A DNA stretch of 64,000 bases, taken from the NCBI RefSeq assembly GCF_015521605.1, contig NZ_WANV01000041.1:62001-126000 (forward strand), read 5' to 3'. Shown here piece by piece: positions 7,805-14,687 of this stretch (position 1 is its first letter; the number at the start of each line of letters is the position of its first letter). The notes beneath the pieces were generated by a model. It ran no database searches, was not told where the DNA came from, and worked only from the letters and a program-made list of their open reading frames with translations. A program made the translations under genes and the position numbers. The stretch is from Thermococcus sp. GTDB lineage: Archaea > Methanobacteriota_B > Thermococci > Thermococcales > Thermococcaceae.

Positions 7805-9433
7805 TCACAGCCTGAAGCTCAATCCCTCGATTCCCTTTTCGTAGAACGCCTTGATTTCGCGGTGCACGGCGTGGTAGTCGGTTATCCCAAGCTCCGCCAT
7901 CCTCTTGATTATCCGCGCCCTAAGGAAGAGCTCGTTGTATATCTCCTTGGGGTCTTCGTAGCCGGCGACCTCGGCTATCTTCCTCTCCAGGATGTACGAG
8001 TTGTTCATCCCACGGAAGATGTGCCTGTCAGTCACCGAGTCCCACTCAAAAACGTTCCTCGTCGCGACGCCGCCGAGCTCCTCGTAGTAGCCCTCTATCT
8101 CGACAACGCTGAGAACCCTTCTCAGGAACCTGCCGCGGACGTAAACGGCCTGCTGGAAGAGTGCTATGTTGAGGTTGTCGATAAAAGTGACTGGGATGTT
8201 TATTGGAGAACCCGTGAAGCGCTGTATCATCTTCCTTATATCGCCGGCGTGAAACGTTGCCATGACCGGGTGTCCCGTCTGCATCGCCTGGAAGGCTATG
8301 GCACCCTCCGCTCCACGGATCTCACCGACGACGATGTAGTTCGGCCTTGAACGCAGGGCCGCTTTGAGCAGGTCAAACAGCGTGACCCTGCTCTCCTCCG
8401 GGCCCCTCTCACGGGTCGTGAGCCTCTGCCAGTTCTTGTGGGGCACCACAACCTCCGGTGTGTCCTCTGCGGTGTATATCTTGGCGTCCGGTTTGATGAA
8501 CGGAATAATCGAGTTAAGCGTCGTCGTTTTTCCACTCGCGGTCTCACCGCAGACGAAGATGCTCATGCCGTATTCGAGGGCCAGCCAGAGGTATGCAGCG
8601 ACCTCGGCCGAGAAGGTGTTCCACTTGACGAGCTGGACGACGCTGAGCGGTGTCGCCGAAAACTTACGGATCGTAGCGCTCGGGCCCTGGATGCTGACGT
8701 CCGGAGAGTAGATTATGTTGATACGCGAACCGTCAGGCAGGGTTCCGTCAACAATAGGGTTCTTATCGCTGACGGGCCTTCCCATCCTTTCGCTGAGGTT
8801 CTTGAAGTAGTCGGCCAGGCGGAGGTTGTCACCGAAGGTTATGTTGGTCTCCATCGCATCGAAGATCTTGTGGATGAGCGAGACGTAGTTGGCGCCTATT
8901 ATGTGGATATCCTCGATGTAAGGATCGCGCATGAGCGGTTCGAGGGGACCAATGCCAACGATGTCCCTCTTCAGGAGGTAGCGGAACTTTGCGACCTCCT
9001 CCGCTGTGAACGAGACCCTCCTACGGCTGAACAGTCCCCCGCCAATCTTACCGAGTGCCTCGTCCATGAGGTCATCCAGAAAGCGCTCGAACTCTTCGCT
9101 GTCCTCGGGGATTCTCTTCTCCGGCGCAAGCTCCAGTATCTTGTCCTTAAGGATGTCGTACTTCCTCTCCTCCTCCGGGCTGGTTATTCTTGGCTCAACG
9201 ACGATGTATCTCTTTTCGGTATTTATGTCGCCGTAGATGTGGATGAATATAGGGTCTCCAACGGGGTAGATTATGTTTGGGTACTTTATGTCCTTCATGT
9301 CCCTGCTGAGCTGGGGATAGAACTCGGGGAACTTGCCGGTCTTTTTGACGAACCTGTCTATGTAAGCCCTCAGGTGGGGATTCCGCGCCATTGCAGCCTC
9401 GATGCTGTCACTGATGTTCTTCCCGACGGGCAT
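7805..9433 (-). CDS. flaI: Archaellum motor ATPase FlaI/ArlI
   Basis: A 542-residue GspE/PilT-type secretion ATPase that powers archaellin export and archaellum rotation at the cytoplasmic membrane. Walker A is GETASGKTT near residue 292. An Asp box-like EDTPEVVVPHK, a Walker B region (NYIVVGEIRGAEG) and a His box (ATFHAGD) follow in order. ATG 9433 is preferred over the upstream in-frame codon at 9457 because it lies just after the flaH stop with GGTGGTG upstream. It is part of the flaB-to-flaJ operon. Confidence 0.95.
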   Translation of the reverse strand: MPVGKNISDSIEAAMARNPHLRAYIDRFVKKTGKFPEFYPQLSRDMKDIKYPNIIYPVGDPIFIHIYGDINTEKRYIVVEPRITSPEEERKYDILKDKILELAPEKRIPEDSEEFERFLDDLMDEALGKIGGGLFSRRRVSFTAEEVAKFRYLLKRDIVGIGPLEPLMRDPYIEDIHIIGANYVSLIHKIFDAMETNITFGDNLRLADYFKNLSERMGRPVSDKNPIVDGTLPDGSRINIIYSPDVSIQGPSATIRKFSATPLSVVQLVKWNTFSAEVAAYLWLALEYGMSIFVCGETASGKTTTLNSIIPFIKPDAKIYTAEDTPEVVVPHKNWQRLTTRERGPEESRVTLFDLLKAALRSRPNYIVVGEIRGAEGAIAFQAMQTGHPVMATFHAGDIRKMIQRFTGSPINIPVTFIDNLNIALFQQAVYVRGRFLRRVLSVVEIEGYYEELGGVATRNVFEWDSVTDRHIFRGMNNSYILERKIAEVAGYEDPKEIYNELFLRARIIKRMAELGITDYHAVHREIKAFYEKGIEGLSFRL

Positions 9434-9434
9434 G

Positions 9435-10130
9435 TCACACCACCGCGGCGATCTCAACTATGAACCCAACCCTAGGCTCAACCCTGAAGGGTATTATCTT
9501 CTGGAAGATCCCCATCGCGTTGTTGTACTTCACTATGGTGGCCGAGTTCTTCAGGTCTCCTCCAAAGACCTTCACGCTGAGCCTTATGAGAAGGCTCGAC
9601 GCCTCCTCCAGGATTTTCAGGAACTCCGGGTCTATGTCGGCGGGGTTTACGGTCATTATTATGACCTTCCCAAGGGAGCTCAGCCTCTTGAGGTGGAGCG
9701 AGAACGCCCGTATCTCATCCGTGTCCAGCTCCTGCGGGAGGAGTGCCGAGAGTGAGTCGATTATCATGACATCGCTCTTCCACAGCCTTGGCTCGCCCAC
9801 GAACCTTGAGAGAAACTTTCTCCTGTCGGAGACGCCAACAAGAAGGGGGTAGAGGGAGACGAAGGTGAGACGTCTTTTTATCAGGTCCTGGATTATGCTG
9901 TAACCGAGGGACTCCATCTGGTTTATGAATTCCGGGGTGGTGTACTGGCTGGAGACGTAGGTCGCAGTGTGGTCGTTCTTCAAAAGGCCGTAGAGGAGCC
10001 TCTGGGAGAATATGGACTTACCCGTCCCCCTGTCCCCCTCTATCAGTACTATACTCCCCGCGGGGATTCCCCCGCCAAGGCGCCTGTGGAGCTCATCGTT
10101 GGGTATCTGGATTTTAAGGAGGCTCCCCAT
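9435..10130 (-). CDS. flaH: Archaellum accessory ATP-binding protein FlaH/ArlH
   Basis: A KaiC/RecA-like protein of about 231 residues with Walker A GDRGTGKS near residue 34 and a Walker B-like segment (VMIIDSLSALLP). FlaH binds ATP and regulates the FlaI-FlaJ motor from the cytoplasmic side. Three starts are possible: GTG 10139, ATG 10136 and ATG 10130. I chose 10130 because GGTGAT lies four bases upstream; the flaG stop sits inside that site, so translation is coupled. The gene ends with GTGTGACATG, which hands over to flaI. Confidence 0.93.
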   Translation of the reverse strand: MGSLLKIQIPNDELHRRLGGGIPAGSIVLIEGDRGTGKSIFSQRLLYGLLKNDHTATYVSSQYTTPEFINQMESLGYSIIQDLIKRRLTFVSLYPLLVGVSDRRKFLSRFVGEPRLWKSDVMIIDSLSALLPQELDTDEIRAFSLHLKRLSSLGKVIIMTVNPADIDPEFLKILEEASSLLIRLSVKVFGGDLKNSATIVKYNNAMGIFQKIIPFRVEPRVGFIVEIAAVV

Positions 10131-10135
10131 GGTCA

Positions 10136-10588
10136 TCACCCCACCTCGAACACCAGGGATTTTCTTTTTCCGGTCTCTATGACGACGGTGATCTTGTGAT
10201 AACCGGGTGATGAGATGAACGCGGTCGGGACGTAGATTTTACCGACATCGTAGGGTGCGAGCACCCCGGTTGGATCAAAAGTCAGGTTAGCTGGAGGAAT
10301 TATCGCACCATCGATCATCACGATGACGGAGTTAGGGTCAAAAGGGAAGGAGTCCTTACCGACGTTGCGGACGTAGAAGATGTACGAGGAACCAGAAACG
10401 GGTATGTTCTCGGGGTCGTTAATTATTTCAAAATTAGTTCGCAGGCTGGTCGCCACGTCCTGACCCTTCACGAGAATCCCGCTCGAAATATCCTGAGTAA
10501 CCACGTACAGACCCCCGGCTACCATGCCCGCTACAAGCAGTGACACGATGAACAGCACAAGCTCCGAGACCACTGAACTCGCCATCAT
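10136..10588 (-). CDS. flaG: Archaellum stator protein FlaG/ArlG
   Basis: A 150-residue protein with one N-terminal membrane helix (about residues 8-30) and an extracellular beta-sandwich domain. It matches FlaG, which forms filaments that together with FlaF anchor the archaellum motor to the S-layer. The start codon overlaps the flaF stop (TAATG); a second ATG at 10585 is equally possible, with GGAGGGG upstream. Order flaF-flaG-flaH is the conserved one. Confidence 0.88.
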   Translation of the reverse strand: MMASSVVSELVLFIVSLLVAGMVAGGLYVVTQDISSGILVKGQDVATSLRTNFEIINDPENIPVSGSSYIFYVRNVGKDSFPFDPNSVIVMIDGAIIPPANLTFDPTGVLAPYDVGKIYVPTAFISSPGYHKITVVIETGKRKSLVFEVG

Positions 10589-11091
10589 TACCCCTCCACA
10601 GGGCAGTACCAGGCACTGCTAACCACCTGCGGGGATCCGTTGGTCGTATTTCCGACCCACTTCCATTTTATCTTCAGGCCGCATCCCACCTCCGTGCTCA
10701 CCACGAGGGAATACGTTATCGTGGGGTCGACCTGAAGGTTCTGAACCGTTACGGTCGTCCACTCCCCGGGAAGGAGATATTCCCTGCTGGGAGCCACAAC
10801 GGAGGTCGTTGTTACGACGCCATCGAAGATGTACGTCCACCTTGCCGGCGACAGGGTGCTCCCCTGGTTTGTGATGTTGAAGGTGATGTCGTAGAACCCC
10901 ACTCCAACCGTGTAGTTGTACCCCGTGAGTTCGAGCTCGGAGGTCTTTGTCCTGAGCACCATCTGGTTGTAGTCCTCGGTCGCCTCATGAACCATCGAGT
11001 ATGCGTTCTCGCTGGAGACGTAGAGCATTCCAAAGGAAACCAGCATCGCTATGAGCAGTACTGCAAAGGCCGCTGGTACACTGACCCCCAT
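10588..11091 (-). CDS. flaF: Archaellum stator protein FlaF/ArlF
   Basis: A 167-residue protein with an N-terminal membrane helix (about residues 6-28), then a soluble beta-rich domain with sequons (NYT, NIT, NTT) facing the pseudoperiplasm. FlaF binds the S-layer in characterised archaea and forms the stator with FlaG. It lies 9 bp downstream of flaD/E. Identification rests on size, topology and position between flaD/E and flaG. Confidence 0.87.
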   Translation of the reverse strand: MGVSVPAAFAVLLIAMLVSFGMLYVSSENAYSMVHEATEDYNQMVLRTKTSELELTGYNYTVGVGFYDITFNITNQGSTLSPARWTYIFDGVVTTTSVVAPSREYLLPGEWTTVTVQNLQVDPTITYSLVVSTEVGCGLKIKWKWVGNTTNGSPQVVSSAWYCPVEG

Positions 11092-11100
11092 GGAGATCCC

Positions 11101-12006
11101 CTAAACGCCGTACACGTCTTCCAGCACCCTTCCGATTACCCTCATCTCCCTCTCTATTGCATCCAGCACCTCCCGGGTTATCCTGACACCCCTGAGCCTC
11201 TCGATGAAGAGCAGCGAAACCAGGTGATCCTGTATCGTGAGCTTCTCGTCCGGCCTCCAGTCCGGCTCCCTGTGATGGGGCCTTATGCCCTCCGCGTATC
11301 TGAGCAGAGTGTTCAGCACGTCCTCCGAGATCCAGCCGATCTGGTAGTAGAACTCAAGCACCTCTTCGAGATTCTGCATCCCAACCCTGTCGATGAGGAA
11401 GCCCAGCCACTTCAGTGCCATCATTGTTGAGACCATGTCGTTGGGGATGTGTTCTAGCCTCGCCTTGGTGCGCGGTGGACCGACGAGGACGTCCTTAAGC
11501 TCGGACGGTATTTCAAATCCCTTGGTAAGCTCAAACTCCTTCTCCATAGGCTCTACCTCCGTCGGGTTTTGGGAAGGAGGCTCGGGGGATTGTGTCTCTT
11601 CAACCGAAGATGATTCACTGGCGAGGGACCCCTCACTGAAACCGCCGGCACTCCCGGCCCCCATGATTTCACCGAACTCCACAGCCTGGGCCCCTCCCAC
11701 TGGTCGGTTCTGTGCCTCACCCCACATGGACTGGTTAGCCTGAGCGGCCTGGGAAAGGTTCATCAGGTGATTGCGTATCTCCTCAAGGTACCTGCCTATC
11801 TCATCCACACGGCTGTCGAGCTTGGAGAGCTTCTCGATCTGGCCCGCATAGGTGCGGAGTACCCTGTCAACTATCCTGTCAACCTGCTCTGGGGTCAGTA
11901 TGTCCCTCTTCTTCATGAGCCGGTCTTTGAGGTCGTCGATCAGAAAGTTCGGAACCTTTCCCCTGAGGCGTTTAAGCCTCTCATCAATCTCGGTTTCGGT
12001 AATCAT
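11101..12006 (-). CDS. flaD: Archaellum cytoplasmic protein FlaD/E (ArlD/E)
   Basis: A 301-residue soluble protein. Residues 1-85 are helical and charged with coiled-coil character. A linker of about 85 residues rich in Q, S, E and P follows, and the C-terminal 120 residues form the conserved FlaD/E domain (ALKWLGFLIDRVGMQNLEEVL in outline). FlaD/E with FlaC forms the cytosolic ring that links the motor to chemotaxis through CheF in euryarchaea. The start overlaps the flaC stop (ATGA). There is only one FlaD/E gene in this operon. Confidence 0.9.
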   Translation of the reverse strand: MITETEIDERLKRLRGKVPNFLIDDLKDRLMKKRDILTPEQVDRIVDRVLRTYAGQIEKLSKLDSRVDEIGRYLEEIRNHLMNLSQAAQANQSMWGEAQNRPVGGAQAVEFGEIMGAGSAGGFSEGSLASESSSVEETQSPEPPSQNPTEVEPMEKEFELTKGFEIPSELKDVLVGPPRTKARLEHIPNDMVSTMMALKWLGFLIDRVGMQNLEEVLEFYYQIGWISEDVLNTLLRYAEGIRPHHREPDWRPDEKLTIQDHLVSLLFIERLRGVRITREVLDAIEREMRVIGRVLEDVYGV

Positions 12007-12506
12007 GCCCCTCCCTCCGACATGGCCTCGTATATCAGGTCATCGAGATCCATCCCATCGATTACAAGGAGTCTCAGGTCGGACTTTATTTGAGCAATCT
12101 CAGCCTTCAACCTCTCAATCTCCTCACTCAGCTCCTGAATCTCGCTGAGTAACGGATTAGAGGAATCAACATCCTTAAACGGGTTGATCTGCTGCGAGAC
12201 TATCTCGTAGAGGACCATAACATCCTTTATCACCTTATCCAGACGGTCTATCTCCTCGCGGAGCTCGTTAATCTGGGTCTTGAGGGTGTCAATGCTCACC
12301 TTTATCCGCGGGATGTCGTTCTCGATCTCGTTTACCCTGGTCATCACCTGGGTCAGAAGCTCCTCCTCTTCCTTCGTCCTCTGGGGGGTCTCCTCTGCGG
12401 CCTCCTGCTCCAGCTCATCGAGCTTGATTATCTCCCTGTTGTCCTCAGGCTTGGCCTCCCCCTCCTTTTTCTTCTTGAACTTGTTTTTCAGGTACGAAAA
12501 CGACAT
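12003..12506 (-). CDS. flaC: Archaellum cytoplasmic protein FlaC/ArlC
   Basis: A 167-residue protein. A basic N-terminus (YLKNKFKKKKEG) is followed by an almost continuous charged heptad-like coiled coil (about residues 45-150) and an acidic tail. This fits FlaC, a partner of FlaD/E in the cytoplasmic archaellum complex. ATG 12506 with GGTGGTTGGA upstream is preferred over the in-frame codon at 12560, which would overlap flaB. It lies 50 bp downstream of the flaB stop. Confidence 0.9.
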   Translation of the reverse strand: MSFSYLKNKFKKKKEGEAKPEDNREIIKLDELEQEAAEETPQRTKEEEELLTQVMTRVNEIENDIPRIKVSIDTLKTQINELREEIDRLDKVIKDVMVLYEIVSQQINPFKDVDSSNPLLSEIQELSEEIERLKAEIAQIKSDLRLLVIDGMDLDDLIYEAMSEGGA

Positions 12507-12556
12507 TCCAACCACCCGCGAGGAGATTAGTGGAAAAAGGAAAGGTGGCAGGGGCT

Positions 12557-13210
12557 TCACTTGAGGTCGACAATCTTGTCGGTGGTGCTGAGACCGTAGG
12601 CGGTCGGGGTGATGACTTTGGTGTAGCCCGGAGCACCGAACTCCGGAACGACCCTGATGGTTATCGGGGTCCTCGGCTCAACACCGCCAAAGACAGCGGT
12701 GAGATTGACGGTCAGAAGGGCAATGTCCCCGGTGGTGAGGGTCGGGATGTTTCCGCTGAGGGAGCTGTCGGCATCCTGGACGATGAGGATTCCGAAGTGG
12801 GTTCCATCAACCAGGGTGCTGTTCCAAGCGGCAGAGGTTGTGTCAAACATGTCCCCGCTTATGGTGGCCTTGGCGTTTCCGTAGGAGAGAACGACCTGCT
12901 TCTGGCCGTTGTCGAGGTAGATCTTGGTCTGGTTGAGGTCAATCGGAGTGCTTCCGGCGTTAAGGGAGACCTGTATTGTCATCAGGGTCATGTTGTTTGC
13001 GCTCGGAGCGTAGCCGGTTACCGCGTCAATCTTTATGCCCGTTGAAACCTCCTGGGTGGTCTGCCTGCCCGTGGCCTCCGCCCTCTGCTGGAGGTAGCCG
13101 CTGGTGTTGATGAGAACCGCGGCAGCCACTGCGGCCACTAGAACCATGGCTATGAACACTATCAGGGTACCGATGCCGACGGCACCCCTCTTCTTCTTCA
13201 GCAACCTCAT
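12557..13210 (-). CDS. flaB: Archaellin (flagellin) FlaB/ArlB
   Basis: A 217-residue major filament protein with a class III signal: basic leader MRLLKKKRG, predicted cleavage after Gly9 by FlaK/PibD, then the hydrophobic [18 protein letters not shown] core that forms the filament centre. Four NxS/T sequons (NMT, NQT, NST, NLT) in the outer domain suggest N-glycosylation. It is the only archaellin gene in this operon, whereas some relatives have several. The first gene of the operon has a TTTATAT box at 13261-13267 and TACATA motifs upstream. Confidence 0.95.
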
Positions 13211-13260: not shown

Positions 13261-13319
13261 ATATAAATCGATTTTTTGTTGGTAATTATGTAGAAACTGG
13301 TGTACCTACATATGTAGGT
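13261..13319 (-). promoter_or_regulatory. flaB operon promoter with three TACATA motifs and a 16-bp palindrome
   Basis: Read on the minus strand, a TATA box TTTATAT occupies 13267-13261, about 50 bp before the flaB ATG. Just upstream are TACATA at 13287-13292 (minus strand), 13307-13312 (plus) and 13311-13316 (minus). The last two overlap within the perfect palindrome ACCTACATATGTAGGT at 13304-13319. As I recall, TACATA is the site reported for the EarA activator of the Methanococcus archaellum operon, and an EarA-like gene lies 1.1 kb upstream. A separate inverted repeat, CTCCAAG (13328-13334) and CTTGGAG (13370-13376), may belong to the end of the methyltransferase transcript. Confidence 0.65.
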
Positions 13320-13393
13320 TGATACTACTCCAAGAAATAACTGCAGATTGGGATATTCTACAACATACTCTTGGAGGGTGTGAAGACAGAACG

Positions 13394-14356
13394 TTACATC
13401 AGGCGCGTAACCAGCAGGACAGATTTTCCCAGGGGGTCAACCTTCACGTCGTAGGGGCTCTCCTCAACAGCGTGAATAACCTCGGTTGAGCTCGGGAAGC
13501 GAACAAATTCTCTCGTGAGGCTCTCAAAGAACTCCATGGCCGCTATCAATGGGTAGTTGTCCCGGAACGGTTCAACTATAGCGAGCTTCCCTCCAGGGCT
13601 TAAGGTACCAATGGCCCTTTTAACCGCCGCACCCGGGTTTTCCAGGTACTCAAGGACGAAGCTCATCACAACGGCGTCGTAGGTATTCTTGACCACGAAT
13701 TTTCTTATGTCCATCTCCCTCAGGAGCACCCAGTCCATACGGGCGTTTCTGACACGGGTCTGTGCAATGCTCAGAAGCCCGGGGGAAAAATCCACTCCAA
13801 CGTACTTCCCGTTGGGCCCCACTGCCTCTCCCAGCTCCACTGGGGAAACAGAGCCACAGCCGAGGTCAAGAACCCTCGCCCCGTCTTCAAGACCAAGAAC
13901 CTCCACTAGGAGCTGCCGGTACGTCCTGTTGAGATCCATCAGCAGGCGCATGTCCCAGAAGTCGGCACCCTTGTCAAAGTCCATGAGTATCTTCGGGTGC
14001 TCCGCAGATATGAAGGCGTAGTCCGCCATCTTGTATATCTCCTCGAGTATCTGGATCCAGTCAGAGAGCAGCCTTCCGGCGTCGTCGGCGCTTAGGTTGA
14101 ACTCGTACGAAAAGCCAGGGACTCTCAGAATGCCCTCGGACTCATCGACAATGCCAAGGGCGATGTACGTGTCGATTAGCTTGCCGAGGTACTCCTTGTT
14201 GGAAACCGAAATCGCGGCCAACAGCTCTTCGCGAGTCGCTCCGTTCGCGAGCCTGCGGAAGATATCGTGCTTCAGCCCGAGCTTGAAAAGGTGTGCAAGG
14301 GAGATGTCCATCATGGCTTCAAGGTTCTTGTCGATGACTTCGATCAGTGCGTTCAT
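13394..14356 (-). CDS. SAM-dependent methyltransferase linked to the archaellum operon
   Basis: A 320-residue class I methyltransferase. The N-terminal ~100 residues are helical and look like the winged-helix dimerisation domain of O-methyltransferases. Motif I is VLDLGCGSVSPVELGE near residue 163, an acidic motif II VGVDFS follows, and a motif near LSPGGKLAIVEPF closes the fold. ATG 14356 is preferred over GTG 14365 because AGGTGA lies about six bases upstream. It begins 10 bp after the earA-like stop, so the two form one operon directly ahead of flaB. The substrate is unknown; archaellin, its glycan or a chemotaxis component are options by position. Confidence 0.8.
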   Translation of the reverse strand: MNALIEVIDKNLEAMMDISLAHLFKLGLKHDIFRRLANGATREELLAAISVSNKEYLGKLIDTYIALGIVDESEGILRVPGFSYEFNLSADDAGRLLSDWIQILEEIYKMADYAFISAEHPKILMDFDKGADFWDMRLLMDLNRTYRQLLVEVLGLEDGARVLDLGCGSVSPVELGEAVGPNGKYVGVDFSPGLLSIAQTRVRNARMDWVLLREMDIRKFVVKNTYDAVVMSFVLEYLENPGAAVKRAIGTLSPGGKLAIVEPFRDNYPLIAAMEFFESLTREFVRFPSSTEVIHAVEESPYDVKVDPLGKSVLLVTRLM

Positions 14357-14366
14357 CCCAGTCACC

Positions 14367-14687
14367 TCATGTGTACCTTGAATAGTAGGAGTGGTAGGAC
14401 TTCAGGAGCTTGACGACCTGTTTCCCGTATTCTGTGAGCCGGTAGTACTTGAAGCCCTTTTCAGTAACGACCTCGACAAGGCCGAGACTCACGAGGGAGC
14501 TGTGGCCGTTGTACCGGTTACCAAGGCCTATAAGAGCACCCTTCACATTTGAGGGGTCTGATTTAACCACCCTCGCAATTTCAGAGAGGTAGGTGGGGGT
14601 GGGATATATTTCATCGAGATAGAAGAGTATCCTCTTCCTTAACTCGCTGCGATTGATGGAACGTATTACAAAGGGATCAATAAACAT
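14367..14687 (-). CDS. earA: EarA-like winged-helix activator of the archaellum operon
   Basis: A 106-residue DNA-binding protein made of one winged helix-turn-helix domain (ELRKRILFYLDEIYPTPTYL, then SEIARVVKSDPSNVKGALIGL, then a wing at VTEKGFKYYRLTEYG). Size, fold and position next to the archaellum operon match EarA, the euryarchaeal archaellum activator. ATG 14687 is chosen over an upstream in-frame codon at 14744; GGGGGAT lies upstream and TATA-like TCTTTAATTA near 14719. Putative target sites lie before flaB. The name is inferred from context and fold, not from a search. Confidence 0.7.
   Translation of the reverse strand: MFIDPFVIRSINRSELRKRILFYLDEIYPTPTYLSEIARVVKSDPSNVKGALIGLGNRYNGHSSLVSLGLVEVVTEKGFKYYRLTEYGKQVVKLLKSYHSYYSRYT

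Follow-up and report, generated by a model that had tools for sequence, protein, structure and literature searches.

According to the covered parts of Stockl 2023 (PMC10665913), EarA is essential for archaellation in P. furiosus, recognizes the motif A(C/G)(C/G)TACA(T/C), and is proposed to recruit TFB. Those parts also describe motif sites in Thermococcales, one, two or three in number, that lie 5' of the arl BRE; the motif search covered only DNA upstream of arl genes, and the paper urges that additional EarA targets be sought. In M. maripaludis, binding of EarA to its sites has been demonstrated by others, the fla promoter carries four 6-bp sites (Ding 2016, 2017; PMC5512572), and TFB recruitment was inferred from a suppressor of a BRE deletion (PMC5512572). 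The methyltransferase gene that follows earA has been named fam in P. furiosus. TFB-RF1 of P. furiosus and Ptr2 of M. jannaschii, which are different regulators from EarA, likewise act 5' of the BRE, where they bring TFB or TBP to a promoter element that is weak; unlike the locus described here, neither is credited with a 12-bp direct array in the portion of the literature covered.

A separate line of work concerns a 23-bp motif, TTTGTGTABSTGBTTATGTAGGT, found in T. kodakarensis promoters (Villain 2021; PMC8643681). The genes carrying it (fla, che, TK0156, TK2147, TK1139 and TK1605) are anti-correlated between two data sets (PMC8643681); they go down together in histone mutants and up with gyrase, and transcripts of arl and che genes change in parallel in two published data sets (PMC8155482, PMC8643681). 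Coregulation of archaellum, chemotaxis and ODP genes has been published by others already. Villain et al. called the function of the motif unclear and proposed a topology-sensitive element (PMC8643681). Stockl et al. (PMC10665913) use the RNA-seq data of that study and, in the parts of their paper covered, do not mention the 23-bp motif; among the papers searched, the Villain paper alone contains the 23-bp consensus, and we found no published link between it and the EarA motif.

The window analyzed here, a stretch of 64,000 nucleotides from a Thermococcus sp. genome (contig NZ_WANV01000041.1), holds a new instance of the published EarA/arl system (Table 1). It shares with the P. furiosus and Thermococcales loci of Stockl 2023, as far as that paper was covered, the protein family, the earA-fam-arlB neighbourhood and a motif class lying 5' of a weak BRE. 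It differs in features not given in those parts, namely a 12-bp phase rule, an in-register fourth unit and a palindrome. Several activator sites just 5' of an A-rich weak BRE are also the arrangement in M. maripaludis (PMC5512572), although the Thermococcales core is ACCTACAY; our own comparison was made within Thermococci relatives.

Table 1. Features of the archaellum locus and its promoter in the window (distances are counted 5' from TTTATA)
Feature	Sequence	Coordinates	Strand	Basis or remark
earA, 106-aa winged-helix activator of archaellum operon		14367..14687	-	PF07381, 113 bits, E 5.9e-33
fam, SAM-dependent methyltransferase, directly 3' of earA		13394..14365	-	Methyltransf_11, E 4.3e-14; neighbourhood
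EarA-type site 1 (distal), candidate	ACCTACAT	13312..13319	-	TACA begins 49 nt 5' of TTTATA
EarA-type site 2, candidate	AGGTACAC	13300..13307	-	TACA at -37
EarA-type site 3, candidate	TTCTACAT	13288..13295	-	TACA at -25
Perfect 16-bp palindrome	ACCTACATATGTAGGT	13304..13319	.	Site 1 plus GG variant of site 2; clade-limited
Putative degenerate fourth unit, in register	ACCAACAAAAAA	13272..13283	-	Merges into A-rich weak BRE
TATA box of arl operon	ATTTATAT	13261..13268	-	TTTATA at 13267-13262; sequence and alignment with relatives
arlB (flaB), sole archaellin gene, first in operon		12557..13210	-	Arch_flagellin, E 1.4e-41
arlC, D/E, F, G, H, I, downstream archaellum genes		7805..12506	-	Profile matches; arlF by position

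A sequence-only reading of this DNA had proposed that the 106-residue winged-helix gene upstream of flaB, on the same strand, encodes an EarA-like regulator. The profile search agrees, with a score far above the curated PF07381 cut-off of 22 bits. The AlphaFold2 model of the protein (pLDDT 89) is a winged helix-turn-helix (wHTH) domain with a long C-terminal helix, and its Foldseek matches are generic, comprising ArsR/SmtB, MarR and other wHTH proteins, among them the centromere-binding protein AspA, which spreads along DNA; a PDB sequence search gave no match. Among the downstream genes, the one at 10588-11091 scores under the archaellin family cut-off and was assigned as arlF by position. 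The region 12003-13210 holds one archaellin gene before arlC, as do many close relatives, while the Thermococcales examined in the covered part of a published survey have two to five arlB genes (PMC10665913).

Among 94 genomes of the order Thermococcales, 72 gave a match to EarA, 73 to fam and 71 to arlD/E. In genomes at least 90% complete the presence of the three is concordant, save in G089, which has an EarA-fam fusion, and G092, which has fam only. Most loci keep the order earA-fam-arlB; a few have earA-fam diverging from arl or at a greater distance. The fusions are single open frames of 435-470 aa that join a divergent EarA-like domain to a fam-like methyltransferase (L157:6894-8303(-), L158:6726-8030(-) and L159:1096-2400(+)), the domains having been confirmed by profile for L157. 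One genome has the fusion alone, without arlD/E (G089), and two have it in addition to a normal earA/fam pair (G093 and G101). Such frames support the view that EarA and Fam are functionally linked.

Read along the arl (minus) strand, the promoter runs ACCTACATATGT AGGTACACCAGT TTCTACATAATT ACCAACAAAAAA TCG ATTTATAT, with three direct TACA sites spaced 12 bp apart. The sequence-only reading had listed TACATA at 13287-13292 (minus), 13307-13312 (plus) and 13311-13316 (minus), the last two within a perfect palindrome, and had placed them 20-50 bp upstream of the flaB TATA box, where an activator would be expected. All three are present, the palindrome is perfect, and the distance to the TATA box favours an activator position. 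The inventory was nevertheless incomplete: it caught sites 1 and 3 and missed the middle member of the array, site 2, while its plus-strand TACATA merely mirrors site 1, being a product of the palindrome that lies outside the conserved direct array. TACATA by itself occurs 23 times in the window, against 8.2 expected from shuffling, and the window genome shows no excess of the two-site pattern (9 matches against 11 for the control). The triple pattern TACA-N8-TACA-N8-TACA, however, occurs once in the 2.03-Mb window genome, at the arl promoter, with none in the reversed control; this array, and not TACATA alone, is the informative feature.

The same arrangement recurs in relatives, a comparison that the earlier reading had proposed as a check; of the two results it named as refuting, no EarA similarity by profile and loss of the motifs in close relatives, neither came about. 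Promoters were taken 5' of the first archaellin gene found (n = 59), and 58 could be anchored on the A run and TATA box; since the A run served to choose the TATA box, its conservation is partly a selection effect. TACA lies at -49 in 56 of the 58, at -37 in 52 and at -25 in 39, with an additional copy at -61 in 8, and all 58 retain at least two in register; these promoters are related by descent, so that the counts are not independent events. One 12-bp phase holds 155 of the 170 TACA across the 75-nt regions. In the same register, AACA occurs at -13 in 49 of 58, and by its sequence it is a degenerate fourth unit entering the A-rich BRE. To judge from the alignment, then, the conserved arl design is a 12-bp direct-repeat lattice that keeps phase with the TATA box and whose distal unit is semi-symmetric. 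No TACAY pairs at 12-bp spacing were found near the earA genes of Thermoplasmata.

Our preferred reading, to which we give a probability of about 0.7, is that EarA activates the archaellum operon from 12-bp direct arrays, that it probably serves the whole motility regulon, and that the 23-bp motif is an EarA double site. By analogy with M. maripaludis and P. furiosus, several EarA protomers on successive 12-bp units most likely bring TFB to the weak BRE. The protomers would load head-to-tail, in one orientation, on ACCTACAY units repeated directly at 12-bp intervals. The array would reach or overlap the A-rich weak BRE, and EarA would presumably contact TFB in this organism and recruit it to the TATA box. 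In chemotaxis-bearing Thermococcales, the same 12-bp operator stands before the che operon, and also before MCP genes and an ODP gene.

The wider regulon is suggested by searches beyond arl. The strict pattern CCTACAY-N5-CCTACAY has 154 matches in the 94 genomes, against 5 in the reversed control. Of 80 non-arl arrays fetched, 56 have the start of a chemotaxis gene no more than 320 bp away (31 MCP, 21 ODP (PF19583), 3 CheR and 1 CheY), and for 51 of these 56 the genome has both EarA and CheR. When 30 cheR loci were picked by protein family, independent of the motif, an EarA-type double site was present upstream of cheR in 28, with scores of 19.8-29.3 against a maximum of 11.4 in 600 shuffles, and the spacing of TACAY pairs peaked at 12. 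The arl and che promoters share a 10-bp site profile as well as the 12-bp spacing. At forward MCP promoters, read by eye, the array sits one unit nearer the TATA-like element, with TACA at about -13 and -25, so that the geometry differs somewhat from that at arl. Such arrays ahead of cheR, MCP, cheY and ODP genes appear to be new, and, given the shared operator, EarA may bind these promoters as well. The window genome itself gave no CheR match and no MCPsignal match in profile searches, and has no EarA-type array upstream of a chemotaxis gene; since its triple array stands solely at arl, the wider regulon would belong to those relatives that have chemotaxis.

Two published findings meet in this comparison: the EarA motif and the 23-bp motif of archaellum and chemotaxis promoters. 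The reverse complement of the 23-mer, ACCTACATAAVCASVTACACAAA, reads as two EarA-type TACA sites 12 bp apart. Its best match in the window is the arl site, with 4 mismatches in 23, and in G011, which we take to be T. kodakarensis KOD1, the che, MCP and ATPase-like promoters show 1-2 mismatches to it. Arrays in G011 stand at an MCP gene (~126 kb), cheR (~537 kb), an ATPase-like gene (~997 kb) and an ODP-MCP pair (~1.41 Mb). The 23-bp motif resembles the arl array in its paired TACA sites at 12 bp, its EarA-type flanks and its classes of target gene; it differs in having been reported in one species and without a link to EarA (PMC8643681). From these likenesses we infer that EarA is probably the factor behind it. 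The predicted EarA regulon would then comprise both swimming and steering, a question left open by the P. furiosus study, and the operator rule gained, direct repeats at 12-bp steps that keep the phase of TATA, is testable in a tractable Thermococcus or Pyrococcus.

Perhaps EarA acts at arl only, as published, and what occupies the chemotaxis arrays is a second wHTH protein with a similar site, or chromatin, the array being a topology- or histone-sensitive element; a topology-sensitive motif is what Villain et al. proposed. Similar arrays do occur in genomes in which EarA is lacking or undetected: the draft genomes G002 and G063 keep MCP/ODP arrays, G092 keeps its cheR array (L291) with no detectable match to EarA or arl, and G056 has arrays of related sequence. 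Moreover, the array is reversed relative to the gene at ODP genes and at one MCP class (MCPc), which counts against one rigid EarA-TFB geometry. We nevertheless consider a separate factor unlikely, given that arl and che promoters share both site profile and spacing, that arrays at chemotaxis genes are almost confined to EarA-bearing genomes, and that arl and che transcripts shift together in both data sets. In G092, a transposase-like ORF adjoins fam (L160:6167-8682) on the usual earA side, and no earA remnant was seen; this context is consistent with, though short of proof of, a recent loss of earA.

Alternatively, the palindrome could be the functional unit, with an EarA dimer on ACCTACATATGTAGGT and cooperative loading from there, much as the sequence-only reading supposed. 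The 16-mer is perfect in the window, where it is the single occurrence in the genome, the looser TACATATGYA is found in 48 of the 58 promoters, and conservation at positions -45 to -40, after site 1, exceeds that at the matching positions after sites 2 and 3. The exact palindrome, however, is present in just 13 of 58, which rules it out as the conserved unit; in many relatives ACCTACATATGCACCTACA direct repeats take its place, and the phase of TACA is that of the 12-bp direct lattice. The three bases before TACA in site 2 are AGG in 12 promoters and ACC in 28, and the exact palindrome depends on the lineage-limited GG and is clade-limited. It is difficult to credit it with the main role, and the palindrome is, on this alignment, incidental, or no more than a component of the distal site. 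What survives of the proposal is that an EarA dimer at the distal near-palindrome is possible. Finally, that the EarA-type sites are chance matches in A+T-rich intergenic DNA, for which one might cite the general excess of TACATA and the unenriched site pairs in the window genome, is vanishingly improbable, being contradicted by a register kept without indels through 58 promoters and by the uniqueness of the triple array.

The preferred reading of EarA on a direct array can be extended, tentatively and at rather less than even odds, into a fuller scheme. EarA would nucleate at the distal near-palindrome and polymerize toward the BRE on the TATA-phased 12-bp lattice, in either orientation; the operator would be the 23-bp supercoiling- and histone-sensitive motif, and EarA loading the step gated by chromatin topology.

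Several further arrays deserve mention. Some strict two-site matches fell in coding DNA that looks sugar-nucleotidyltransferase-like (NAYIGPYTSIG; G000:C33 among them) and were judged a coding coincidence. TACATA/TATGTA arrays lie in the gap that separates a DUF5658 gene from a small divergent one (L222, L275, L251, L271 and L315); because they also occur in G056, which lacks EarA, they were not counted as EarA targets, and they may belong to another regulator with a similar sequence. An ODP-family metallo-beta-lactamase gene beside the ATP synthase operon (L178 and L218) has a conserved reversed EarA-type array, and in G011 a short MCP gene comes after it; the ODP-family product may serve chemotaxis by sensing redox state or oxygen. 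A chemotaxis cluster containing cheY, a CheA-like gene and others comes directly after fam in some Thermococcus genomes and has its own forward array (L126:11364-15555 and L268).
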